The position numbers and the translations under genes were made by a program. 21,545 bases of DNA from positions 1-21,545 of IMG/VR virus record IMGVR_UViG_3300046009_010455. One strand, written 5' to 3'. Origin of the DNA: a virus. The notes beneath the pieces were generated by a model. That model did no database searches, was not told the DNA's origin, and was given only the letters and a program-made list of their open reading frames with translations. Below, in pieces: positions 4,125 to 16,618 of the stretch (its first letter is position 1; every line of letters begins with the position of its first letter).

Positions 4125-5126
4125 ATGGGTGGAAGAGCACTTAAAAACACCATAACTCGTAGATACGATAGAAAAGAATTCGATGTTATTAGCATTGAAC
4201 TAATGGATATGCTTAAAAGTGATTTTAAGCGTGTTTTAATGCCTTTATTCTATACAAATAAGGAATCATTCGGTGACGCTGATATAATTGTTTCTATGGA
4301 AGATTTTACGCATGATATGCGTGAATACATTATGGATAAATTTCTCCCAAATGAAATATTCCATAATGGTAACTGCTGGTCGTTTGATTACAAAGAATTA
4401 CAAGTTGACCTTATTACGGTATCGGCTGAAGACTTTGATACCAATGCAATGTACCTTTCATATAACGACTTGGGAAATTTTATTGGTCGTATCGCTCAAG
4501 GATTTGGCCTAAAATATGGTCAAGAAGGTCTTTGGTATGAGCATTATTTCAAGGGTACCAATATCGCTAGGATTCAAGTTTCTAAAAACTATGAAGACAT
4601 CTTTAAGTTTCTAGGGCTTTCATATGAAAGGTATTTGGAGGGTTTTGATGAACTTGAGGATATCTTTGAATACATAGCAACCTGTAAGTTCTTCAATTGG
4701 AAATATTTCCAATTGGATAAGTTGAACAAGATTAATCGTGACCGTAACTTGAAACGCAAGTCATACATGTCATTCCTTGAATGGATGGATGCTAACGTTG
4801 CTGATGAAAATCACGAATATGAGTTTGATAAAACGCAAGATGAATACAATAAGATGATTGCTGAAGCATTTCCTTATGCAAACTTGGAATTGGAAATCAG
4901 AAGAGTTGAATATGAATATTGCAAAACGCTTTATATCAAAGCTAAGTTTAATGGTGGAGAAGTAATGCGTAGGTATGGCCTTAAAGACAAAGAATTAGGT
5001 GACGCAATGACTGGGTTTAGGAAAGTAATTGGTAGTGTGTTTCAAAATGAAACATATGAAGACTACATATTAAACAACACTGTTGAACATATCTATAGTG
5101 ATTTTGAGGTTTATATAACTAGATAA
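4125..5126 (+). CDS. Pol beta-superfamily nucleotidyltransferase
   Basis: The 333-aa protein opens with MGGRAL and carries FGDADIIV (D51 and D53) and ELQVDLI (D95). Together these are the G-G...D-x-D...D pattern of Pol-beta-type nucleotidyltransferases, which bind two metal ions and transfer a nucleotide from NTP. The C-terminal half (about 100-333) is helical and charged and I do not recognise it. The family includes CCA-adding enzymes, poly(A) polymerases and antitoxin-like AMP transferases. Most tRNA genes in this window do not encode CCA, which makes tRNA end addition or repair an attractive but unproven idea. It has its own promoter and is followed after 1 base by a small membrane gene. 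Confidence 0.7.
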   Translation: MGGRALKNTITRRYDRKEFDVISIELMDMLKSDFKRVLMPLFYTNKESFGDADIIVSMEDFTHDMREYIMDKFLPNEIFHNGNCWSFDYKELQVDLITVSAEDFDTNAMYLSYNDLGNFIGRIAQGFGLKYGQEGLWYEHYFKGTNIARIQVSKNYEDIFKFLGLSYERYLEGFDELEDIFEYIATCKFFNWKYFQLDKLNKINRDRNLKRKSYMSFLEWMDANVADENHEYEFDKTQDEYNKMIAEAFPYANLELEIRRVEYEYCKTLYIKAKFNGGEVMRRYGLKDKELGDAMTGFRKVIGSVFQNETYEDYILNNTVEHIYSDFEVYITR

Positions 5127-5259: not shown

Positions 5260-5586
5260 TTAATCATAGAAATGATTGTTTTCAAGCATAAAATTAACTA
5301 TATCATCAGCCTCTTTACAAACCTGTTGAAATTCCATTACTTGGTCGTTTGAAAGTATGAACCATTCATTGTTAGCTTCAGTTCTTTGATGAGAATAACG
5401 TTTATGCAACCAACGTTCTACCTTAACATAGTTATCGGTTCCATAAGCATCAAGAACAGAAATAATATTTGAATTACCTGTTTTAAGTTGTTTAAGCCGT
5501 TTTTCTGGTTTGTTTTTGGTAAAACCAATCTTATGACGTTCATTACCATCTTTGTCGACTTCTAATAAAAGATATACATAGCCCAT
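5260..5586 (-). CDS. GIY-YIG protein of the T5orf172 / MUG113 type
   Basis: This is the only gene on the minus strand. The likely start is the ATG at 5586 (MGYVYLLL), which gives 108 aa; a start at 5649 would add 21 residues with no family match. YVYLL (the GIY counterpart), KIGFTKN (the YIG counterpart) and the later RTEANNEWFIL follow the T5orf172 pattern, a GIY-YIG branch common in phages. The family suggests DNA cleavage or binding, but many members are uncharacterised. It lies tail to tail with the small membrane gene, their stop codons adjacent. Confidence 0.75.
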   Translation of the reverse strand: MGYVYLLLEVDKDGNERHKIGFTKNKPEKRLKQLKTGNSNIISVLDAYGTDNYVKVERWLHKRYSHQRTEANNEWFILSNDQVMEFQQVCKEADDIVNFMLENNHFYD

Positions 5587-5599
5587 AGTTACAAGTATA
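5587..5599 (-). promoter_or_regulatory. Minus-strand -7 element directly at the GIY-YIG start
   Basis: On the minus strand TATACTTG is followed by 5 bases and then ATG. The close spacing supports the internal start and suggests a leaderless message. Confidence 0.45.
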
Positions 5600-5649
5600 G
5601 ATAAATTAATTTGGAGTGTAAAGATTTTTGAAAATATTTTTAAAAACAC

Positions 5650-5743
5650 TTGACAATATCAAAAAAGTTTTGTACCTTTGTATAACTTTTAAGAACAACA
5701 ACATATTTATAAAAACGAGAGCAATCTCAAAAACAACAAAACA
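5650..5743 (+). promoter_or_regulatory. Promoter and 5' leader of tRNA array 1
   Basis: TTGAC (5650-5654) and TACCTTTG (5673-5680) are well spaced. The 30 bases at 5672-5701 are identical to 9499-9528 at the head of array 2, and the similarity continues through an ATATTTA. A small hairpin GAGA-GCAA-TCTC (5717-5728) follows, then an A-rich stretch to the leader ORF. Two copies of one promoter module thus drive the two tRNA arrays. Confidence 0.8.
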
Positions 5744-5818
5744 ATGAAAAACTTATCTTTACAAATCGTCCTTGTGTTATGTTTGCTAGTGGCAGACTGG
5801 GTGGGCTATGCTTGTTAA
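5744..5818 (+). CDS. Leader peptide of tRNA array 1, 24 aa, Leu/Val/Cys-rich
   Basis: The ORF has 6 Leu, 4 Val and 2 Cys in 24 codons. Codons 9-16 read VLVLCLLV, so they hold only Val, Leu and Cys. The first canonical tRNAs downstream are Cys x2, Val x3 and Leu. It sits between promoter and intrinsic terminator, and its codons 19-22 can pair with the terminator's 5' arm. This fits a ribosome-stalling leader peptide in which shortage of Val-, Leu- or Cys-tRNA allows readthrough into the tRNAs. The hydrophobic composition could alternatively mean a tiny membrane peptide, but the terminator mimicry would then be unexplained. Confidence 0.75.
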   Translation: MKNLSLQIVLVLCLLVADWVGYAC

Positions 5819-5855
5819 GTAAGTTTTAAATACTGATACAACAAAGGCCCATTCG
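5798..5855 (+). promoter_or_regulatory. Possible antiterminator pairing in leader 1
   Basis: TGGGTGGGCT (5798-5807, end of the leader ORF) can pair over 10 bp, four of them G-U, with 5846-5855. That is the 5' arm of the terminator. The ORF segment imitates the 3' arm GAGTGGGC. A ribosome that reaches the stop would cover it and let the terminator form; one stalled at codons 9-14 would leave it free. Confidence 0.65.
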
Positions 5856-5872
5856 AAAGAGTGGGCTTTTTT
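5846..5872 (+). terminator. Intrinsic terminator (attenuator) ahead of tRNA array 1
   Basis: GCCCATTC (5847-5854), a GAAA loop and GAGTGGGC (5859-5866) form an 8-bp stem, then T6. It ends 7 bases before the first tRNA-Cys, so expression of the array from this promoter requires readthrough. Confidence 0.85.
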
Positions 5873-5879
5873 ATTTTAT

Positions 5880-5950
5880 GCTAGTAATGTACATGGAGTG
5901 CGATAAGTCTGCAAAACTTATAGAGATTGGTTCGATTCCAACTATTAGCT
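5880..5950 (+). tRNA. tRNA-Cys(GCA), first copy
   Basis: Acceptor GCTAGTA/TATTAGC, D stem GTAC/GTGC with a short loop, anticodon arm TAAGT-CTGCAAA-ACTTA, T loop TTCGATT, and U73 as expected for Cys. CCA is not encoded. Confidence 0.85.
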
Positions 5951-5957
5951 CAAAAAT

Positions 5958-6028
5958 GTTAGCGTGGCCGAGTGGCTAGGCAGAAGTCTGCAAAACTTCC
6001 CACACAGGTTCGAATCCTGTCGCTAACT
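5958..6028 (+). tRNA. tRNA-Cys(GCA), second copy
   Basis: Acceptor GTTAGCG/CGCTAAC, anticodon arm GAAGT-CTGCAAA-ACTTC, T loop TTCGAAT, U73. Outside the anticodon loop it differs clearly from the first copy, so it is not a recent tandem duplicate. Confidence 0.9.
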
Positions 6029-6059
6029 CAAAATAATAATAGTTTAAAAAGTTTTAGTT

Positions 6060-6386
6060 ATGATTAGTGAAGAAGTAAAAAAGAATTTTCTAGTAGATAG
6101 AGATTCAACAGGTAGAGAAGTAGTTACGTTCATTGAAACAGGTAAAAATTATTTCATTGAATACATTGAACCTAGGAACCATAAGATTTCTTGGGGCGAT
6201 ATAAACCCAGCTACCAAACAAGTTGAAGGTAGTTATGGGCAAAAATACAAGGGTTCAATTAAAGCTGAAGAATCACTTATTACTAAAGAAAACGGATTTG
6301 AAGAAATAGTTGAAGGTACTGGTAGTCCTTATTCAACGATTGAAGAAATGCATAATAAATGGAAAAAAGAGAATGGTTATGCTTGA
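6060..6386 (+). CDS. Hypothetical protein, 108 aa
   Basis: An ATG 31 bases after the second tRNA-Cys opens a soluble, charged protein that I do not recognise. It appears beta-rich (VVTFIETGKNYFIEYIE, then ISWGDINPATKQVEG) with a helical C-terminus. It lies inside the tRNA transcription unit and would be co-expressed with the tRNAs. Its stop overlaps the next start. Confidence 0.7.
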   Translation: MISEEVKKNFLVDRDSTGREVVTFIETGKNYFIEYIEPRNHKISWGDINPATKQVEGSYGQKYKGSIKAEESLITKENGFEEIVEGTGSPYSTIEEMHNKWKKENGYA

Positions 6387-6675
6387 TAAAAACGAAGTAA
6401 AGAAAGACTTATATAAGTCAAAAAATATGGCTAAGTTTAGCCACTATGTAAGTGGTAATTTATACTATAATGTTGAATTGGCAGATGGTGTTTATCAATT
6501 TCCAATTGCAACTGTAGAAGAAGATAATGATGCAACAGCTAGATTAGGTCGTTCATTATTATACCTTTCAGAAGACTTAGGTACTACTGTATTTAATGCT
6601 GAAATTAAGGGTTCTGAATTGAACCGTTGGATTTCAAAAGCAATAGATAAAGGAGAATTTACAAAGGTTGGCTAG
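6379..6675 (+). CDS. Hypothetical protein, 98 aa
   Basis: The chosen ATG at 6379 overlaps the TGA of the previous gene; ATG 6373, two codons upstream, is the alternative. The sequence has a strand-rich core (GNLYYNVELADGVYQFPIAT) and a helical end (SELNRWISKAIDKGEF). There are no membrane segments or recognised motifs. The gene pair separates tRNA-Cys from tRNA-Val in the same unit. Confidence 0.7.
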   Translation: MLDKNEVKKDLYKSKNMAKFSHYVSGNLYYNVELADGVYQFPIATVEEDNDATARLGRSLLYLSEDLGTTVFNAEIKGSELNRWISKAIDKGEFTKVG

Positions 6676-6686
6676 TCCAACCACAC

Positions 6687-6761
6687 GGGGAGATAGCTCA
6701 GTTGGTTCAGAGCAATTGCCTTACAAGCAATAGGTCGGGGGTTCGAATCCCTCTCTCCCTA
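6687..6761 (+). tRNA. tRNA-Val(TAC)
   Basis: Acceptor GGGGAGA/TCTCCCT, D stem GCTC/GAGC, anticodon arm ATTGC-CTTACAA-GCAAT, T arm GGGGG-TTCGAAT-CCCTC, A73. Canonical class I. Confidence 0.93.
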
Positions 6762-6790
6762 CAAACATGCCTTAACGTTTAAAAGGCGTG

Positions 6791-6865
6791 GCTCGTATAA
6801 CTCAGTTAGGAAGAGTGGCCCCACGAACAGGGGGTTGGTCTTGGGTTCGAATCCCAATACGAGTA
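6791..6865 (+). tRNA. tRNA-like gene with non-canonical anticodon loop (no U33)
   Basis: Acceptor GCTCGTA/TACGAGT, D stem ACTC/GAGT and T arm TTGGG-TTCGAAT-CCCAA are good. The anticodon stem CCCC/GGGG closes the 7-nt loop ACGAACA, which puts C at position 33 and GAA at 34-36. U33 is almost universal, so the isotype is unsure: Phe by position, Arg(ACG) if the loop is shifted. Confidence 0.65.
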
Positions 6866-6875
6866 CTAAATTTAT

Positions 6876-6947
6876 TGGAGCGTAACTCAGAGGCAGAGTG
6901 CTACTATGACATGGTAGAAGTCGAGATTTCAAAATTCTCCGTTCCAA
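6876..6947 (+). tRNA. tRNA-Val(GAC)
   Basis: Acceptor TGGAGCG/CGTTCCA, D stem ACTC/GAGT, anticodon arm CTACT-ATGACAT-GGTAG, T arm with loop TTCAAAA, A73. It begins with an unusual U1-A72 pair. Confidence 0.8.
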
Positions 6948-6954
6948 CACAACT

Positions 6955-7071
6955 CTTAACGGAGACGAATAGCAATGAGTGATTTGCAACACTTAGGGTA
7001 CAGCGTATTTGAGTTAAACTCATTATTGACCCTAGATATTAATTAATATCTGAAAGTTCGCCACCGTTAAG
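6955..7071 (+). ncRNA. Structured RNA of about 117 nt inside tRNA array 1
   Basis: The ends form a perfect 8-bp stem, CTTAACGG (6955-6962) with CCGTTAAG (7064-7071). Inside are TAGGGT pairing with ACCCTA, a hairpin GAGT-TAA-ACTC and the palindrome AGATATTA/TAATATCT. There is no T-loop motif and no coding potential. It is placed between two tRNA-Val genes as if cut from the same precursor. I know no matching family. Confidence 0.55.
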
Positions 7072-7077
7072 AAAAAT

Positions 7078-7148
7078 GGCCCCATGGCGTAATGGGAGCG
7101 TATCGCTTTTACATGGCGAGGGCAGTGGTTCGATTACACTTGGGACTA
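7078..7148 (+). tRNA. tRNA-Val(TAC), second copy
   Basis: Acceptor GGCCCCA/TGGGACT with one C-A mismatch, D stem GCGT/GCGT, anticodon arm TCGCT-TTTACAT-GGCGA, T loop TTCGATT, A73. The T stem also has a mismatch, so it is less perfect than the copy at 6687. Confidence 0.78.
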
Positions 7149-7158
7149 CAATACTCAT

Positions 7159-7242
7159 GGCTGAGTGGTGGAATGGTAGACACAAGGGTCTTAAAAACCC
7201 TTGGGCGTAACGCCCGTGCGGGTTCGAGTCCCGCCTCGGCTA
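7159..7242 (+). tRNA. tRNA-Leu(TAA), class II
   Basis: Acceptor GGCTGAG/CTCGGCT, anticodon arm AGGGT-CTTAAAA-ACCCT, long variable arm with GGGCG/CGCCC, T arm GCGGG-TTCGAGT-CCCGC, A73. Confidence 0.93.
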
Positions 7243-7252
7243 CTTTAACTAT

Positions 7253-7335
7253 GGCTTCGTGCTGGAATGGTATACAGGGCGGTCTCAAAAACCGCTGTTC
7301 GAAAGGACGTGTGGGTTCGAGTCCCACCGAGGCTA
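7253..7335 (+). tRNA. tRNA-Leu(CAA), class II
   Basis: Acceptor GGCTTCG/CGAGGCT, anticodon arm GCGGT-CTCAAAA-ACCGC, variable arm GTTC-GAAA-GGAC, T arm GTGGG-TTCGAGT-CCCAC, A73. Confidence 0.92.
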
Positions 7336-7345
7336 CTTTGATTAT

Positions 7346-7421
7346 GGCCCCTTAGCCCAACTTAGGCAGAGGCAACAGACTCAAAATCTGTACAGTATGG
7401 GTTCGAATCCCATAGGGGCTA
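7346..7421 (+). tRNA. tRNA with Leu anticodon CAA on a class I body
   Basis: Acceptor GGCCCCT/AGGGGCT, anticodon arm ACAGA-CTCAAAA-TCTGT, T arm ATGGG-TTCGAAT-CCCAT, A73. The variable loop is only 5 nt, whereas bacterial tRNA-Leu normally has a long variable arm. The body is closely similar to the gene at 7515. Confidence 0.8.
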
Positions 7422-7426
7422 CTAAA

Positions 7427-7507
7427 AGATGGTTACTGCAAGCTAACTTGGATAAAAATTTGTCTCGAAAACAAATCAGCGGTTCAATTCCGCAAAACAT
7501 ACCATCT
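7427..7507 (+). tRNA. Aberrant tRNA-like gene, loop CTCGAAA (Ser CGA by position)
   Basis: AGATGGT (7427-7433) and ACCATCT (7501-7507) pair perfectly. An anticodon-type arm TTTGT-CTCGAAA-ACAAA and a T arm GCGG-TTCAATT-CCGC are present. However, about 7 extra bases separate the T arm from the 3' acceptor strand, and no normal D arm is visible. Ser would also need a long variable arm, which is absent. Confidence 0.5.
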
Positions 7508-7514
7508 TGTTTAT

Positions 7515-7590
7515 GGCCCTCTAGCCCAACCTAGGTAGAGGCATATGCCTTAGAAGCATAACAGTGTGGGTTCGAATCCCACGGGGGCTA
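7515..7590 (+). tRNA. tRNA with Leu anticodon TAG on a class I body
   Basis: Acceptor GGCCCTC/GGGGGCT, anticodon arm TATGC-CTTAGAA-GCATA, 5-nt variable loop, T arm GTGGG-TTCGAAT-CCCAC, A73. It shares the D arm and variable loop with 7346, so the pair looks like a duplication with changed anticodon. It is the last gene of array 1. The next 127 bases hold nothing I can call. Confidence 0.8.
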
Positions 7591-7717
7591 CAATGTTTAA
7601 TTCTTTCTTAAAGGAATGATATTTATTATAATATGAAATTATTTATAAAATCTTTATTAAGGGCATGAGATGGGTACATATTTGAACAATATAAGAAACT
7701 CTCAAGAAAATTAAAAC

Positions 7718-9476: not shown

Positions 9477-9568
9477 TTGCTTTTTATAAAATAATGTAGT
9501 ACCTTTGTATAACTTTTAAGAACAACAAGATATTTAATATAAACGGGGTGACCCACAACAAGAAGAAA
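9477..9568 (+). promoter_or_regulatory. Promoter and 5' leader of tRNA array 2
   Basis: TTG (9477-9479), 20 bp, TACCTTTG (9500-9507). Bases 9499-9528 are identical to 5672-5701 of array 1. A small hairpin GGG-GTGA-CCC (9545-9554) replaces GAGA-GCAA-TCTC of array 1: same position and GNRA-type loop, different stem. This suggests a conserved structure. Confidence 0.8.
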
Positions 9569-9661
9569 ATGAAAACTTTTAACAACATATTTGATTTTGC
9601 ATTTGAATTTGCAGCCGAGGCCGATAAAAGCCTAGGAAGGTCATCTATTGTCAAAAGTTAA
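9569..9661 (+). CDS. Leader peptide of tRNA array 2, 30 aa, Phe/Ala/Glu/Asp-rich
   Basis: Codons 8-19 read FDFAFEFAAEAD, twelve residues drawn only from Phe, Asp, Ala and Glu; all five Phe codons are TTT. Canonical tRNAs downstream are Phe(GAA), Glu(TTC), Asp(GTC) and Ala(TGC), the same four amino acids. The ORF lies between a promoter and an intrinsic terminator, and codons 24-26 can pair with the terminator's 5' arm. The layout resembles the phenylalanine-rich leader peptide of pheA. I infer ribosome-mediated attenuation tuned to four amino acids at once. Confidence 0.8.
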   Translation: MKTFNNIFDFAFEFAAEADKSLGRSSIVKS

Positions 9662-9697
9662 CGTTTAGGATTAACGAAATTGATAAGAAAGCTGACC
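9639..9697 (+). promoter_or_regulatory. Possible antiterminator pairing in leader 2
   Basis: GGTCATCT (9639-9646, leader codons 24-26) pairs with AGCTGACC (9690-9697), the terminator's 5' arm, through 7 of 8 positions. GGCC (9619-9622, codons 17-18) can instead pair with GGTC (9639-9642), a candidate 1:2 pause helix that a ribosome stalled in the F/D/A/E core would block. Confidence 0.6.
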
Positions 9698-9718
9698 AGA
9701 AATGAGTCAGCTTTTTTT
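9688..9718 (+). terminator. Intrinsic terminator (attenuator) ahead of tRNA array 2
   Basis: AAAGCTGAC (9688-9696) and GTCAGCTTT (9706-9714) form a 9-bp stem with a 9-nt loop; the T-run continues to 9718. It ends 5 bases before the first tRNA-Phe. Confidence 0.88.
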
Positions 9719-9723
9719 GTTTT

Positions 9724-9796
9724 GGTGGGGTAGCTCCAATGGTAGAGCGCAAGCCTGAAGAGCTTGGCGATGGGGGTTCAAATCCCTCTCCCACCA
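9724..9796 (+). tRNA. tRNA-Phe(GAA), first copy
   Basis: Acceptor GGTGGGG/TCCCACC, D stem GCTC/GAGC, anticodon arm CAAGC-CTGAAGA-GCTTG, T loop TTCAAAT, A73. Position 37 is G, unusual for Phe, where A is normal. Confidence 0.85.
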
Positions 9797-9816
9797 CAAG
9801 AGTTCTTTGAAAATAT

Positions 9817-9889
9817 GGTACGGTAGCTCAGTTGGTAGAGCAGCAGACTGAAAATCTGCGTGTCGGTGGTTCGATTCCACCCCGTACCA
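9817..9889 (+). tRNA. tRNA-Phe(GAA), second copy
   Basis: Acceptor GGTACGG/CCGTACC, D stem GCTC/GAGC, anticodon arm GCAGA-CTGAAAA-TCTGC, T arm GGTGG-TTCGATT-CCACC, A73. Fully canonical. Confidence 0.94.
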
Positions 9890-9895
9890 CTTAAT

Positions 9896-9979
9896 GGCGC
9901 ATAATACAAATGGGTGAGTAGCTGCTCTTTCAAGGCAGATGAAGAAATTCTAGAGCGGGTTCGATTCCCGTGTGCGCTA
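9896..9979 (+). tRNA. tRNA with Glu anticodon TTC on a class II body
   Basis: Acceptor GGCGCAT/GTGCGCT, D stem TAC/GTA, anticodon arm CTGCT-CTTTCAA-GGCAG with U33, T arm GCGGG-TTCGATT-CCCGT. A 16-nt variable region contains GAA-GAAA-TTC. Bacterial tRNA-Glu has a short variable loop, so the body is Ser/Leu/Tyr-like while the anticodon reads Glu. Confidence 0.75.
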
Positions 9980-9981
9980 CG

Positions 9982-10194
9982 ATGAAATACTACTGTGATG
10001 AAAAACGTCATTTAGTTTGCGTTCCATATTCATTGGAAAACTTACATAAGATGGCAAAAGACTTAGAGATAAAAAAGTGCTGGTTCCACAAAGACCATTA
10101 CGATATACCTAAGAGAAGAATTACAGAAATTCAATCGAAGTGTGAAATTGTCACACCAAGAGAGATAGTAAGAATTAAAAATTTGGAGATTTAG
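9982..10194 (+). CDS. DUF4031 family protein, 70 aa
   Basis: The start at ATG 9982, two bases after the tRNA, gives MKYYCDEKRHLVCVPY. It continues with SLENLHKMAKDLEI and CWFHKDHYDIPKRR. This is the DUF4031 pattern, with the family's LHxMA helix and WF...HYDI...R core. The family is common in phages and its function is unknown. The gene fills the gap between two tRNAs, and its stop codon (10192-10194) lies inside the acceptor/D region of the next tRNA. Processing of that tRNA would therefore remove the stop from the message. Confidence 0.8.
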   Translation: MKYYCDEKRHLVCVPYSLENLHKMAKDLEIKKCWFHKDHYDIPKRRITEIQSKCEIVTPREIVRIKNLEI

Positions 10195-10257
10195 CTCAGA
10201 ATGGTAGAGCGACCCCACGTAAGGGGTGCGTCCCAGCTTCGATAACTGGAGTCTCCA
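10185..10257 (+). tRNA. tRNA-Thr-like gene with a 6-nt anticodon loop
   Basis: Acceptor GGAGATT/AGTCTCC and D stem GCTC/GAGC are canonical. The anticodon arm is ACCCC-ACGTAA-GGGGT: a 5-bp stem with a loop of 6 instead of 7. The body resembles bacterial tRNA-Thr (GAGCG, ACCC stem, GTAA after the wobble position). Adding a missing U33 would give anticodon CGT. The T stem has a C-A mismatch at 53-61. Confidence 0.6.
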
Positions 10258-10262
10258 CAAAT

Positions 10263-10347
10263 GCTGCGTTTGACTAGCGGTCTAGGTCACCACCCTTTCA
10301 AGGTGGAACTCGTAAGAGTATCATGGGTTCGAATCCCATACGCAGTT
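10263..10347 (+). tRNA. Second tRNA with Glu anticodon TTC on a class II body
   Basis: Acceptor GCTGCGT/ACGCAGT, D stem GAC/GTC, anticodon arm CCACC-CTTTCAA-GGTGG, variable arm ACTC-GTAA-GAGT, T arm ATGGG-TTCGAAT-CCCAT, U73. The long variable arm is unambiguous and unlike tRNA-Glu. Its sequence is distinct from the 9896 gene. Confidence 0.78.
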
Positions 10348-10351
10348 CGAC

Positions 10352-10376
10352 TTTTTTGTACGTTGCTGTATATTTA
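10352..10376 (+). promoter_or_regulatory. Promoter of the GIY-YIG endonuclease gene
   Basis: TTTTTTG (10352-10358) and TATATTTA (10369-10376) stand 5 bases before the ATG. The upstream box is closer than usual (10 bp), so only the -7 element is convincing. Confidence 0.4.
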
Positions 10377-10381
10377 TATGT

Positions 10382-10975
10382 ATGGCAAGAAAAAAAGCAA
10401 ACATTCATTACCTATACAAAACTACTTGTTTGGTTACAGGTAGATATTATATAGGAATGCACAGTACTAGTAACCTAGAAGATGGTTATATGGGAAGTGG
10501 AAAACGATTAAGATATAGCATACGTAAGTATGGTATTGATAATCACAATAAAGAAATATTAGGGTTCTTTGAAAGTAGGGAGTTATTAATTGAAGCAGAG
10601 AAGGAAGCAATCACGCCAGAAATGTTGATTGATAGAGATTGTATGAATTTAGCTGAAGGTGGCAGTTCTGGTTTTGATTACATAAAATATTTACGTAAAA
10701 ATAATCCAAAATATGATATTTTTTGGAGAGAAATGCAAAGTAATAGATTAAGTGTAGTACATAAATTAGGTCTAATTAATTACAATACTTTTGAAGGAAG
10801 ACAACATAAAGAGGAAACAAAACAATTGATGAGTGATAAAGCCAAACTACGTGTTGGCAAAGCGAATTCACAATACGGAACTTGTTGGATAACAAGAAAT
10901 GGTGTTAATAAAAAGATAAAAAAAGAAGACCTTGAACATTGGTTAAATGAAGGTTGGGTTCAAGGAAGAAAATAA
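10382..10975 (+). CDS. GIY-YIG homing endonuclease (Seg-like) inserted in the tRNA array
   Basis: The 197-aa protein has the GIY-YIG core. HYLYKTTCLVTGRYYIGMHS corresponds to the GIY and YIG strands, GYMGSGKRLRYSIRKYG to the following helix with catalytic Arg, and EAEKEAI contains the conserved Glu. Residues about 130-197 look like a DNA-binding tail, including a NUMOD3-like GKANSQYG and a WITRNGVNKKI strand pair. Such free-standing endonucleases spread by cutting alleles that lack them and favour conserved targets such as tRNA genes. It has its own promoter and sits 3 bases before a canonical tRNA-Glu, which suggests insertion into an older array. Confidence 0.88.
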   Translation: MARKKANIHYLYKTTCLVTGRYYIGMHSTSNLEDGYMGSGKRLRYSIRKYGIDNHNKEILGFFESRELLIEAEKEAITPEMLIDRDCMNLAEGGSSGFDYIKYLRKNNPKYDIFWREMQSNRLSVVHKLGLINYNTFEGRQHKEETKQLMSDKAKLRVGKANSQYGTCWITRNGVNKKIKKEDLEHWLNEGWVQGRK

Positions 10976-10978
10976 AAT

Positions 10979-11050
10979 GGCGCATTCGTCTATCGGCTAG
11001 GACGTTTGGTTTTCAACCAAAAAAGAGGGGTTCAACTCCCCTATGCGCTA
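10979..11050 (+). tRNA. tRNA-Glu(TTC), canonical
   Basis: Acceptor GGCGCAT/ATGCGCT, the tRNA-Glu-like D region TCGTCTATCGGCTAGGAC, anticodon arm TTTGG-TTTTCAA-CCAAA, short variable loop, T loop TTCAACT, A73. It shares acceptor GGCGCAT with the class II gene at 9896. Confidence 0.9.
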
Positions 11051-11055
11051 CAAAT

Positions 11056-11129
11056 GGCTGGTTAGTAGAGTTGGTTACAACATCCCCCTGTCACGGGGAA
11101 GGTCACGGGTTCGAATCCCGTACCAGCCG
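11056..11129 (+). tRNA. tRNA-Asp(GTC), first copy
   Basis: Acceptor GGCTGGT/ACCAGCC, anticodon arm TCCCC-CTGTCAC-GGGGA, T arm ACGGG-TTCGAAT-CCCGT, G73 as in tRNA-Asp. The D stem has one mismatch. Confidence 0.9.
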
Positions 11130-11136
11130 CAAGAAT

Positions 11137-11209
11137 GGATAATAGGTCAAATGGCTAAGATATCACCCTGTCACGGTGTATGGAGCGGGTTCGACTCCCG
11201 TATTATCCG
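11137..11209 (+). tRNA. tRNA-Asp(GTC), second copy
   Basis: Acceptor GGATAAT/ATTATCC, anticodon arm CACC-CTGTCAC-GGTG, T arm GCGGG-TTCGACT-CCCGT, G73. Confidence 0.9.
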
Positions 11210-11213
11210 CTTT

Positions 11214-11315
11214 GAATGTAGAGAGTGTTCTAATAGCAGTGTTAGATAACGGTAGGACCGTGCTTCATGGTGGAGACCTGTACAGTCTTCGATGGTTCGA
11301 TTCCATCCACATTCA
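11214..11315 (+). tRNA. Oversized tRNA-like gene (102 nt), Tyr(GTA)-type loop
   Basis: Acceptor GAATGTA/CACATTC (6 of 7 pairs) and T arm GATGG-TTCGATT-CCATC are clear. Just before the T arm is GAGAC-CTGTACA-GTCTT, a normal 7-nt loop with U33 and GTA, but almost no variable loop remains. About 30 extra bases between acceptor and this arm form hairpins: TCTAA/TTAGA, then ACGGT/ACCGT or the competing ACCGTG-CTT-CATGGT. Either an interrupted tRNA or a remodelled tRNA-like RNA. Confidence 0.5.
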
Positions 11316-11319
11316 CAAA

Positions 11320-11414
11320 AATGGTGCAATTGAACGAAGTAGGTCTGCTAACCGAAAAGGAATGTTAAAGCCATTCTACAATAGGAATGATAGCAGTCAT
11401 TCATAGCGTAGTTA
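11320..11414 (+). other. Structured inter-tRNA region of unknown nature
   Basis: Two clear hairpins, GAATG-TTAAAGC-CATTC and GAATGA-TAGCAG-TCATTC, follow a Ser(GCT)-like GGT-CTGCTA-ACC element with a 6-nt loop. No acceptor pair and no T-loop motif were found, so I do not call a tRNA. It may be a decayed Ser tRNA or a separate small RNA. Confidence 0.35.
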
Positions 11415-11485
11415 GAGTGCATAGTTTAATGGCAGAGCGTTGGGCGGCAAGCCCAAAGATTTAGGTTCGAATCCTAATGTACTTC
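11415..11485 (+). tRNA. tRNA-like gene with G33 in loop CGGCAAG
   Basis: Acceptor GAGTGCA/TGTACTT, D stem GTTT/GAGC, anticodon stem TTGGG/CCCAA and T arm TTAGG-TTCGAAT-CCTAA are all good. The 7-nt loop CGGCAAG has G at position 33 and GCA (Cys by position) at 34-36. C73 does not suit Cys. The isotype is left open. Confidence 0.6.
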
Positions 11486-11493
11486 AAAAATAT

Positions 11494-11563
11494 GGGGCTG
11501 ATGCGATGGAAGCAATCTTCACTTGCAATGAAGTATTTTTCGGTTCGATTCCGACACGCTCCA
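11494..11563 (+). tRNA. tRNA-Ala(TGC)
   Basis: The acceptor begins GGGGC and ends GCTCC with the G3-U70 pair that defines Ala. Anticodon arm CTTCA-CTTGCAA-TGAAG, T loop TTCGATT, A73. The last two acceptor pairs are mismatched and the D stem is short. Confidence 0.82.
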
Positions 11564-11650
11564 CGGGTTCACTTTACTTTTTCTCCACTTTTATTATATT
11601 TATAATAAATAGAATTAGTGAATGGGATTTAAAATATAATATTTAAATTT

Positions 11651-12159: not shown

Positions 12160-12232
12160 GGGAAAATAGTTTAATGGGGTAGAATACCACCTAGACGGGT
12201 GGGGGCGTGGGGTTCGAACCCCCCTTTTTCCA
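12160..12232 (+). tRNA. tRNA-like gene with 6-nt loop TAGACG
   Basis: Acceptor GGGAAAA/TTTTTCC, D stem GTTT/GAAT, T arm GGGG-TTCGAAC-CCCC, A73. The anticodon stem CCACC/GGTGG closes a 6-nt loop, TAGACG. Anticodon cannot be assigned: GAC (Val) or AGA (Ser) depending on which base is missing. Confidence 0.6.
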
Positions 12233-12237
12233 CAAAT

Positions 12238-12351
12238 GAACATATAGTTAAGTGGTATAACAATGTAAAAAGGTTAATCTGTCAAGATTACGTTCAGCAT
12301 TACACATCGCCTGTCCCGCCAGAGTCCTAGGTTCGATTCCTAGTGTGTTCG
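12238..12351 (+). tRNA. Oversized tRNA-Asp-like gene (114 nt) with two GTC loops
   Basis: Acceptor GAACATA/TGTGTTC, D stem GTTA/TAAC, T arm CTAGG-TTCGATT-CCTAG and G73 (Asp-like) are good. Between D and T arms are about 64 bases instead of about 22. They include TAATC-TGTCAA-GATTA (GTC in a 6-nt loop), an enclosing ATGTAA/TTACA pairing, and a second CTGTCCC with U33 and GTC flanked by weak GC pairs. It looks like a tRNA-Asp with an insert that carries a second anticodon arm. Confidence 0.5.
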
Positions 12352-15093: not shown

Positions 15094-15303
15094 ATGAAAA
15101 CAACAAGACAAATCAAAGCGTACATTAAACAATGCGGTCATAAGCGCACAAATGCTGAAATGGCTGAACGATTAGGCGTACCTAGAATGACATTTGCTGG
15201 CGTTCTTGCTAACATGAAACGTTATGGTGAAATTGATAACAATACATTGTTATCTGATTTAACACCAAGGACGAGAAAAGCTAGTAATAAAACGAGCAAA
15301 TAA
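15094..15303 (+). CDS. Small helix-turn-helix protein, 69 aa
   Basis: The basic protein (MKTTRQIKAYIKQCGHKRTN) continues with AEMAERLGVPRMTFAGVLAN, which fits a helix-turn-helix: helix, LGVPR turn, recognition helix. A Lys/Arg-rich tail completes it. It probably binds DNA, perhaps as a phage regulator. Its stop lies directly before the large structured RNA. Confidence 0.65.
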   Translation: MKTTRQIKAYIKQCGHKRTNAEMAERLGVPRMTFAGVLANMKRYGEIDNNTLLSDLTPRTRKASNKTSK

Positions 15304-15304
15304 G

Positions 15305-15876
15305 TAAAACAAAGATTCATTACAGCAAACAGACCTGTAAAATAATGGTTCTAAGGTAGTGCCTTTCGGTAATTCGAAGTAGCGACAGTAGTATAAGTTG
15401 GTAGTTATATGTTTAATTATGTATAATGTTTCCCACGGTAGGTAAAGCTTGAATAAAGCACGAACATGCTACGTTCCCAGTGATGTGTATGAAGACGAAA
15501 GTCAGGGGTTGGTTAAACGAGGATAGACTCTCGGCCCTAAAAATACATTATACGGAAGCCACACCCCATGGGAATGTTGTCTACATTCAATCGGGGACAA
15601 AAAAAGTGAATCTGAATTTAATTTAAAGAGTAACTGATAAGGGAACCGATAAGGGAGAACGTAAGGGGTGTTATAAATGTATAACGACTGTGGAACAAAG
15701 TTATGAGGCTTGTACTTCAAATACTCCACGAAAAGCAATGCGACTGCTCATAAGCCGTTATAACACTACTCTTTTTTACTGCTGTGAAGCAGAAAACTGT
15801 TAGGTCTATTAGGTACTGCAAAAGCGCAGATAATCATAGGTAACTACGTCAGAAGCCACAGACGTGTCTAACTGTT
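15305..15876 (+). ncRNA. Large ornate structured RNA, about 570 nt, ROOL/GOLLD-like in context
   Basis: There is no convincing ORF, while self-complementary segments are dense. Long-range pairs are GTATAATGT (15421-15429) with ACATTATAC (15545-15553), GTGTTATAA (15668-15676) with TTATAACAC (15758-15766), and CCCC (15564) with GGGG (15593). Local hairpins are TTACAG/CTGTAA (15320-15340), GAATGT/ACATTC (15572-15588), CTGCT-GTGA-AGCAG (15779-15792), CTGC/GCAG (15816-15829) and ACGTC/GACGT (15846-15865). GNRA loops and multi-branched domains are typical of large folded RNAs. A phage origin, a length near 600 nt and a tRNA-flank position are the known setting of ROOL and GOLLD RNAs. I cannot recall their consensus well enough to match it, so the family is inference. 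Confidence 0.6.
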
Positions 15877-15936
15877 AGTGATGTAAGTTGGTTAGATAAG
15901 ATAATCTTATTGTTGGTTCGACTCCAACCATCACTA
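15877..15936 (+). tRNA. Minimal tRNA-like element (60 nt) after the large RNA
   Basis: Acceptor AGTGATG/CATCACT is a perfect 7 bp, followed by TA (8-9), T arm GTTGG-TTCGACT-CCAAC and A73. Between them are only 26 bases, about 13 fewer than needed. The part that should be D and anticodon arms folds as one helix, GATAAGA-TAA-TCTTATT, with no variable loop. A processing signal (RNase P/RNase Z substrate) for the 3' end of the large RNA is one possibility; a decayed tRNA is another. Confidence 0.5.
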
Positions 15937-15939
15937 CAA

Positions 15940-16125
15940 TTAATTGAATTACCCACACCCAATAAAGGAGTGAATATAGTACTGGGTTCACCTATTCAAT
16001 TAAGATATCCCGAAAGGGGCCTTGTTATAATAAAAGATAGTACGCTAAACCTGTCAAGACGTAAGACAGATGTTTTAGGGAAGCAAGTATTGCAAATACG
16101 CTAAAGTAATACTGTTATAATAAGG
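15940..16125 (+). other. Further structured non-coding region between tRNA-like elements
   Basis: TTAATTGAAT (15940-15949) pairs perfectly with ATTCAATTAA (15994-16003), enclosing ACCCA/TGGGT. Then come CCC-GAAA-GGGG, CTGTC/GACAG and GTATT-GCA-AATAC. GTTATAATAA occurs twice (about 16023 and 16113). It may be a 3' domain of the ornate RNA or a second RNA. The ORF visible here has no protein character. Confidence 0.45.
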
Positions 16126-16129
16126 TAAT

Positions 16130-16226
16130 GGGTGTGTAGTATAGTGGAAACACACAAGAAAACTTTGTGCAGAAATGCAAATACATTGTAGTACTTGAGA
16201 CGTAGGTTCGATTCCTACTACGCCCA
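16130..16226 (+). tRNA. Oversized tRNA-like gene (97 nt) with insert in the anticodon region
   Basis: Acceptor GGGTGTG/TACGCCC, T arm GTAGG-TTCGATT-CCTAC and A73 are clear, the D arm approximate. CAAG after the D arm pairs with CTTG before the T arm as an anticodon stem, but about 35 bases lie between them instead of about 9. The insert contains TGCA-GAAA-TGCA. TTGTAGT at its end could be the true loop (GTA, Tyr), leaving an insert of about 26 nt. Alternatively CACAA-GAAAACT-TTGTG is a separate arm. Confidence 0.5.
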
Positions 16227-16239
16227 CAAAAATAACAGA

Positions 16240-16618
16240 GTGCATAATTTAAAAATTAAAGCGAAGAACAGGAAACCGTACAATTAAGGTTGACAAAAAC
16301 AAATTAATCGAGAAGATTAAAGAAAACAAAAAAGCACACATAGAAGCTTACGAAAAAGCTCTAGTTGCTTACAAAACAGAAGCTCTTAAACAATTATCCT
16401 TATTAACATCAAGAGCTGAAGAAGGTGATACCAAACTTTCCCTTCAATTAACAACACCAATTAATAACGCTGAAAATTACGATAAAATCGTTGAAATGTT
16501 TGAATGGGAAGTTGAAGATTTTGTTGAATTAGAACAACAAGAATTCAACGAATACGTTCAAGATGAAACCGATTTTGCTCGTATGGCTAAGCTATCAAAT
16601 TCAGCATATATTCGCTAG
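16240..16618 (+). CDS. Hypothetical protein, about 125 aa, frame broken near its start
   Basis: The frame ending in TAG 16616-16618 is open from 16253 and clearly coding (VDKNKLIEKIKENKKAHIEA, later YDKIVEMFEWEVEDFVELEQ), but contains no ATG, GTG or TTG near its beginning. GTG 16240 reads 15 codons and stops in the neighbouring frame. Removing one A from the A5 run at about 16251-16255 would join GTG to the long frame, giving a basic start of MHNLKLKRRTGNRTIKVDKN. AUU 16283 is a less likely start. The protein is helical and charged, of unknown function, and lies just behind an aberrant tRNA. Confidence 0.6.

Follow-up and report, generated by a model that had tools for sequence, protein, structure and literature searches.

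The window analysed here is the whole stretch of a 21.5-kb virus record (IMGVR_UViG_3300046009_010455; 21,545 nt), in which the promoters are of the Bacteroidota type (TTG...TAnnTTTG); promoter type is the only guide to the putative hosts of the metagenomic phages considered below. Two tRNA arrays in the window are each preceded by a predicted promoter, a short leader ORF and a predicted intrinsic terminator. The unit ahead of the Phe/Glu/Asp array (unit A) had been proposed in an earlier sequence-only reading, and its promoter, its 30-codon ORF with a core of only Phe, Asp, Ala and Glu, its terminator and the adjoining array were all recovered where that reading had placed them. A second complete unit (unit B, 5650-5878), which lies ahead of a Cys/Val/Leu array and had been overlooked, was located because its promoter and 5′ leader repeat those of unit A (5661-5717, 88% identity). 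The parts are as follows.

Unit A
9477..9507, + strand: putative promoter of the Bacteroidota type, TTGC-N19-TACCTTTG, by sequence pattern
9543..9555, + strand: mini-hairpin of the 5′UTR, ACGGGGTGACCCA (GGG-gtga-CCC)
9569..9661, + strand: leader ORF MKTFNNIFDFAFEFAAEADKSLGRSSIVKS, 30 codons; class A cores carry an excess of synonymous change
9590..9625, + strand: putative sensor, codons 8-19, FDFAFEFAAEAD; 12/12 residues in {F,D,A,E}
9639..9646, + strand: region 2, GGTCATCT, codons 24-26, 5′ strand of the antiterminator by computed pairing
9690..9697, + strand: region 3, AGCTGACC, 5′ arm of the terminator, with region 2 or region 4 as partner
9688..9718, + strand: predicted intrinsic terminator, AAGCTGAC-loop-GTCAGCTT-TTTTTT (-16.1 kcal/mol, z -5.7)
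9724..11485, + strand: putatively controlled array A, 8 tRNAs by ARAGORN, with small ORFs and a gene for a homing endonuclease in between; starts at Phe 9724, Phe 9817, Glu 9896, Glu 10263, Glu 10979, Asp 11056, Asp 11137 and Cys 11415

Unit B
5650..5680, + strand: putative promoter, TTGAC...TACCTTTG
5717..5728, + strand: mini-hairpin of the 5′UTR, GAGA-gcaa-TCTC, where unit A has ACGGGGnnACCCA
5744..5818, + strand: leader ORF MKNLSLQIVLVLCLLVADWVGYAC (Leu x6, Val x4, Cys x2)
5798..5807, + strand: region 2, TGGGTGGGCT, 5′ strand of the antiterminator (2:3 pairing -15.9 kcal/mol)
5843..5870, + strand: predicted intrinsic terminator, with its 5′ arm (5846-5855) as region 3
5880..7591, + strand: putatively controlled array B, tRNA Cys, Cys, Val, Phe, Val, Val, Leu, Leu, Leu, Leu

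The promoter pattern TTGC-N19-TACCTTTG occurs five times in the window versus 0.68 expected, and of 40,800 stretches of twelve residues taken from ORFs of the window's phage group, 0 scored 12/12 in {F,D,A,E}. The array had been described as holding two Phe, one Glu, two Asp and one Ala tRNA; the Phe and Asp pairs and Glu (called three times by ARAGORN) stand, Ala received no ARAGORN call, and Cys was called in addition. A possible tRNA-Ala (TGC) was read by eye at about 11494-11564, and Ala(TGC) is called by ARAGORN in most of the related class A arrays. The amino acid of the tRNA-Cys in array A is missing from the core of the unit A leader, and that of the tRNA-Phe in array B from the core of the unit B leader.

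Surroundings of the tRNA Arrays

A GIY-YIG-type ORF resembling homing endonucleases (10382-10975, +; PHROG 314) lies within array A, and a gene of the GIY-YIG-type T5orf172/MUG113 kind (5260-5649, -) lies just before unit B, which suggests mobile elements around the tRNA arrays. tRNA-like genes that are degenerate or enlarged were observed at 12160-12351 and 11216-11316, at the end of array A (ARAGORN '???'; Rfam tRNA over 114 nt), and they may carry insertions. Upstream of the arrays, a protein with a PARP catalytic domain is encoded at 983-2287 (Pfam PF00644, E 2e-26), and the product of 2287-2997 was considered as a tRNA-hydrolase, for which no confirmation was obtained. About 0.9 kb at 15300-16250 lacks an evident long ORF and contains two divergent matches to tRNA (at 15877-15936 and, with an insertion, at 16130-16226); tRNA was the sole Rfam family matched there, and the segment is possibly a structured RNA.

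The 5′UTR hairpin ACGGGGnnACCCA was rejected as a component of the attenuator because it also occurs before ordinary genes in other phages. A search with its pattern recovered the relatives together with ordinary genes of unrelated phages, and the element stands ahead of ordinary small genes in other virus contigs (L012 3567-, L030 7422-, L031 745+), which makes it a candidate for a general 5′ mRNA element of such phages. Scanning for exact copies of the 5′UTR sequence gave zero matches.

Leader Classes in Related Phages

Relatives were gathered through the neighbouring protein encoded at 4125-5126 (39 loci) and the class A leader (14 loci), and searches with the class D and class C leaders returned 30 and 14 loci, respectively. 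Alignments of all members of class C or D were too variable for scanning, and subset alignments worked. Neither the class A leader nor the neighbouring protein yielded relatives in scans of bacterial genomes. The architecture of leader, terminator and array recurs throughout the related loci, and the tRNA clusters fetched from larger related records contain 12-65 tRNAs apiece with four classes of leader.

Class A: leader alphabet {F,D,A,E}, before a Phe Glu Asp Ala array
Class B: leader alphabet {L,V,C}, before a Cys Val Leu array
Class C: leader alphabet {P,Q,T,Y,G,K}, e.g. TYTYYQPKTQGGK, before a Pro Gln Tyr Thr Gly Lys array
Class D: leader alphabet {H,I,M,N,R,S,W}, e.g. NIHRNSISNWRRNS, before a His Trp Ser Ile Met Asn Arg array

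These alphabets have zero overlap and sum to the 20 amino acids, and all four classes were detected in each of four records (G003, G006, G007 and G009). The single F/D/A/E leader of the sequence-only reading is thus one of a set that covers all 20 amino acids.

The composition of the leaders also shifts where the arrays are rearranged. In G002, the B and A arrays form one array (Cys Val Leu Val Leu Leu, then Phe Asp Phe Ala Asp Phe Ala) behind a single leader, ILLDSLCLAADVDF, in which both alphabets are mixed, and a separate class A leader was not found within the 30-kb stretch. Array C of the same record includes a tRNA-Glu, and an E is present in the leader of that array, TYTYQPETKQPKGG, which is of class C. 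Likewise, the fragment L055 carries a fused array (Cys Val Leu Phe Asp) and a leader, ILAFIDCLAVLFDALDALKE, that is fused in the same way.

Several of these phages also carry tRNAs with anticodons to stop codons, which are possible suppressors: Stop tta in the array at L091 4714, SeC tca in L086 and L114, Pyl cta in L082, L095, L110 and L204, and tta at JN638751 411932.

Leaders in Phages with Other tRNA Groupings

The tRNAs of three megaphages with published genomes (LR756501, LR756502 and LR756504) are grouped unlike those of the window's group, and their leaders differ accordingly in sequence and still match the arrays behind them.

LR756502: SSRSRSS, before Arg Ser Arg
LR756502: FQQQQQQQ, before Gln x4
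LR756502: KHKHFSKLNKWF, before Phe His Phe Lys x3
LR756502: IETIGYTGYEG, before Glu Tyr Glu Tyr Glu Ile Gly
LR756501: SKHSKHFSSSSKWF, before Trp His His Phe Lys Ser
LR756501: TPAPAVAFRRGTGTGTGT, before Arg Thr Val Ala Gly Pro
LR756504: KKKK, before Lys x3
LR756504: IAIVEIAVIGGAEEGV, before Glu Ala Ile Val Gly Glu
LR756504: FWHFHF, before His, Phe (region fetched later)

A total of seven further units were obtained from cultured jumbo phages, namely Bacillus phage G, which had been chosen as a control and proved positive, Salicola phage SCTP-2 with four leaders, Agrobacterium phage Atu_ph07 and Caulobacter phage CcrColossus. In phage G, gp86 precedes a Cys Asp Phe Tyr Glu Thr Ser array. The annotations give gp86 and the ORF of Atu_ph07 as unknown or hypothetical proteins. 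No matching leader was present in the tRNA-rich phages EcS1, Xanthomonas X1, LR756511 and LR756508, which were read as controls, so the trait is not general to phage tRNAs. The control Vibrio phage nt-1 has one candidate leader, for which a match is uninformative because its array holds nearly all isotypes. In LR756502, a 642-kb megaphage, a GOLLD RNA was also observed directly upstream of a tRNA (L131 16686-17092, 275 bits).

Leader Composition and tRNA Content

Units were defined by a rule that did not consult composition: a tRNA, an upstream terminator, and the longest ATG ORF of 16-45 codons ending near the terminator. The score was the share of residues 5-19 that fall within the isotype set of the leader's own array, and in the null the leaders were dealt randomly to the arrays; ARAGORN misses odd tRNAs, and contig ends cut some arrays. 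Among 72 deduplicated units of the window's group, the score was 0.675 for the own array versus 0.252 when permuted (sd 0.032; 0/20,000), and among 17 units from the megaphages with other groupings it was 0.545 versus 0.173 (sd 0.043; 0/20,000). The share of the isotypes of the own array that are present in the core was 88-93%, versus 39% under permutation. For the seven cultured-phage units, which were spotted by eye and scored afterwards, the true assignment of leaders to arrays ranks best of 5,040. The units of the window's group are interrelated, and therefore the independent weight lies with the megaphage and cultured-phage tests. The check proposed with the original observation, that homologous leaders should follow the tRNA set in composition, was thus borne out both within the clade and in phages with different groupings, the putative regulatory codons being cognate to the product of the operon, i.e., the tRNAs encoded downstream.

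Coding Signal and Codon Choice

In the 83 curated units, a leader ORF before the first gene is present by construction. Single-base codon differences in the leader cores are synonymous in a proportion of 0.52-0.69 versus 0.20-0.30 expected, and they fall chiefly at third positions, which supports the view that the leader ORFs evolve as coding sequence, as translated ORFs do; by this synonymous bias, they are short ORFs with predicted translation. Codons that are rare in the phages are preferred in the cores (GTG/GTC, CCG, ACG, GGC, CGC and TCG). Theory predicts rare regulatory codons in sensitive attenuators (PMC1183508), and the needs of RNA structure could partly account for the bias.

Antiterminator Pairing

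The pairing proposed earlier between codons 24-26 of unit A (9639-9646) and the 5′ arm of the terminator (9690-9697) was reproduced as a computed duplex of -8.8 kcal/mol. Across the units, the best duplex between the leader past codon 12 and the terminator 5′ arm (+4 nt) was computed for own and for swapped partners; the pairing of class A looked weak when the arm was trimmed at the loop, which the 4-nt extension resolved.

Class A: own -11.9, swapped -9.4 (0/10,000)
Class B: own -14.6, swapped -10.6 (0/10,000)
Class C: own -14.4, swapped -12.1 (44/10,000)
Class D: own -14.0, swapped -10.5 (0/10,000)
Megaphages: own -13.3, swapped -9.0 (0/10,000)
Cultured phages: own versus swapped, 3/5,040

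The antiterminator of phage G by itself was not significant. From the comparison of own with swapped partners, an antiterminator of segment 2 with the terminator 5′ arm is supported, and a predicted intrinsic terminator lies between the leader and the first gene. Region 2 starts at codons 18-27 in 72/82 units, with a median start codon of 20-23 across the five groups, and it begins a median of 22 nt downstream of the middle sensor codon, a spacing that would keep region 2 largely free during a ribosome stall in the sensor. Leaders of classes C and D have their stop codon 25-33 nt past region 2, too far for a ribosome pausing there to cover that region, and timing must therefore matter in these classes.

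For a region 1:2 hairpin, own pairing was no better than swapped pairing in any class. The geometry of the pheA, trp and his attenuators, to which unit A had been likened, is hence supported in its 2:3 antiterminator alternative and not in its trp-like 1:2 hairpin. In trp, the 1:2 hairpin favours termination when the leader is untranslated (PMC1183508). With no 1:2 hairpin supported here, we infer that 2:3 should prevail when the leader is not translated, so that the array would be on by default, and the lack of 1:2 specificity leaves the state without translation uncertain.

Proposed Mechanism and Alternatives

Each unit is very probably a ribosome-mediated transcription attenuator that controls a phage tRNA array, a reading carried by the computed parts, the match between composition and tRNAs, the coding selection on the ORF and the own-specific 2:3 pairing. 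Promoter use, translation, termination and the response with the direction of its switch are predicted, and the steps would run as follows. The leader ORF, of about 20-45 codons, would be the first to be transcribed and translated, and its codons from about 5 to 19 would call mainly for the amino acids of the downstream tRNAs. When the charged tRNAs are plentiful, the ribosome would proceed over region 2 (start near codons 19-26), the terminator (3:4) would form and the array would stay off. When any cognate charged tRNA is scarce, the ribosome would slow in the sensor codons and leave region 2 free to pair with the terminator 5′ arm (2:3), and the polymerase would enter the tRNA genes. The output would then be the very molecule whose charged form is sensed, a negative feedback on decoding capacity, with host anticodon nucleases, host shut-off and amino-acid shortage as candidate causes of tRNA depletion.

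The attenuator might instead read a general slowing of translation (host shut-off, inhibitors), its composition being tuned to phage demand and not to individual charged tRNAs. Such a role would suit the several amino acids per leader, as well as the expectation that, without a detectable 1:2 hairpin, an untranslated leader favours 2:3; however, general slowing would not need each leader to use mainly the amino acids of its own array, nor the composition to shift with fusion or regrouping of arrays, and we regard it as unlikely. It is very improbable that the leader acts through its nascent peptide, as an arrest peptide or in trans, and not through a codon-by-codon wait for charged tRNA. Within the classes amino acids and not codons are conserved, as a functional peptide would have it, but selection on amino acids is equally expected where the cognate tRNA is the signal; moreover, composition alone is common to the peptides across phages, with no shared motif, and the homopolymer cores (QQQQQQQ, KKKK) suit codon hunger better.

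The ORF might also be a small phage gene in its own right, followed by its own terminator and only by coincidence of this composition and placed before tRNAs; this could be argued from its stopping short of the terminator and from the annotation of phage G gp86 and the Atu_ph07 ORF as unknown or hypothetical proteins. The leaders of unrelated phages (QQQQQQQ, KKKK, SSRSRSS and FDFAFEFAAEAD), however, have no common sequence and share only the match to the array, region 2 complements its own terminator better than those of others, and the permutation tests contradict coincidence, so that this explanation is exceedingly improbable. T-boxes also end in a switch between terminator and antiterminator and respond to tRNA charging, and an RNA of this kind would sense the tRNA directly, leaving the ORF incidental. 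The chance of such a riboswitch here is practically negligible: no Rfam T-box or other leader family was matched at the gathering score in the window or in seven further leader-bearing loci, the ORF is under coding selection, and up to 9 isotypes are served by one leader.

Ribosome-mediated attenuation of the arrays, the preferred reading, points to a broader role for which we see a moderately good case. In several unrelated lineages of huge phages, the leaders would form a viral supply monitor, in which the 20 amino acids are split over a few attenuated arrays, of which the window's group has four. Each array would be turned on by itself once one of its charged tRNAs becomes scarce, for example through destruction by host anticodon nucleases, and the phage tRNAs would serve as a repair stock made on demand and not as a constitutive supplement. 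If the leaders work as their anatomy says, many tRNAs of jumbo phages are made on demand for those running short, and this, if true, accords less with static codon compensation than with counter-defence or host shut-off. The textbook mechanism of attenuation would gain a new output in tRNA genes, and the equality of leader composition and tRNA set provides a sequence rule for finding more cases. The idea is directly testable, since four cultured phages (G, SCTP-2, CcrColossus and Atu_ph07) bear such leaders.

Comparison with Known Systems

As in T-box riboswitches, the charging of tRNA would decide transcription read-through in the phage units; T-boxes, however, are without a leader ORF, whereas here the ribosome would read the signal. 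In the open-licence papers searched, attenuation is described only for other operons and phage tRNAs are described without it. Phage tRNAs have been described as evading host defences that target tRNAs (PMC10264068; PMC11555353). The output is the same in both cases, namely tRNAs able to replace attacked host tRNAs, but those works treat the tRNAs themselves, and a text search of PMC10264068 found no mention of attenuation, leader or terminator.

The closest comparison is with the trp, his, pheA, leu, thr and ilv leaders, which are ribosome-mediated attenuators of amino-acid operons (PMC1183508). Like the attenuators of the trp/his/pheA type, the phage units have a short leader ORF with putative regulatory codons, among which rare codons are preferred, an intrinsic terminator before the first gene, and 2:3 and 3:4 pairings that are mutually exclusive. 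Unlike them, the phage leaders show no specificity in a region 1:2 hairpin, and the genes under putative control encode viral tRNAs and not biosynthetic enzymes. The phage arrangement works like ribosome-mediated attenuation and falls outside the trp/his family on these two points, the 1:2 hairpin and the biosynthetic output; moreover, one phage leader would monitor 1-9 amino acids, and four of them cover all 20 in one phage.
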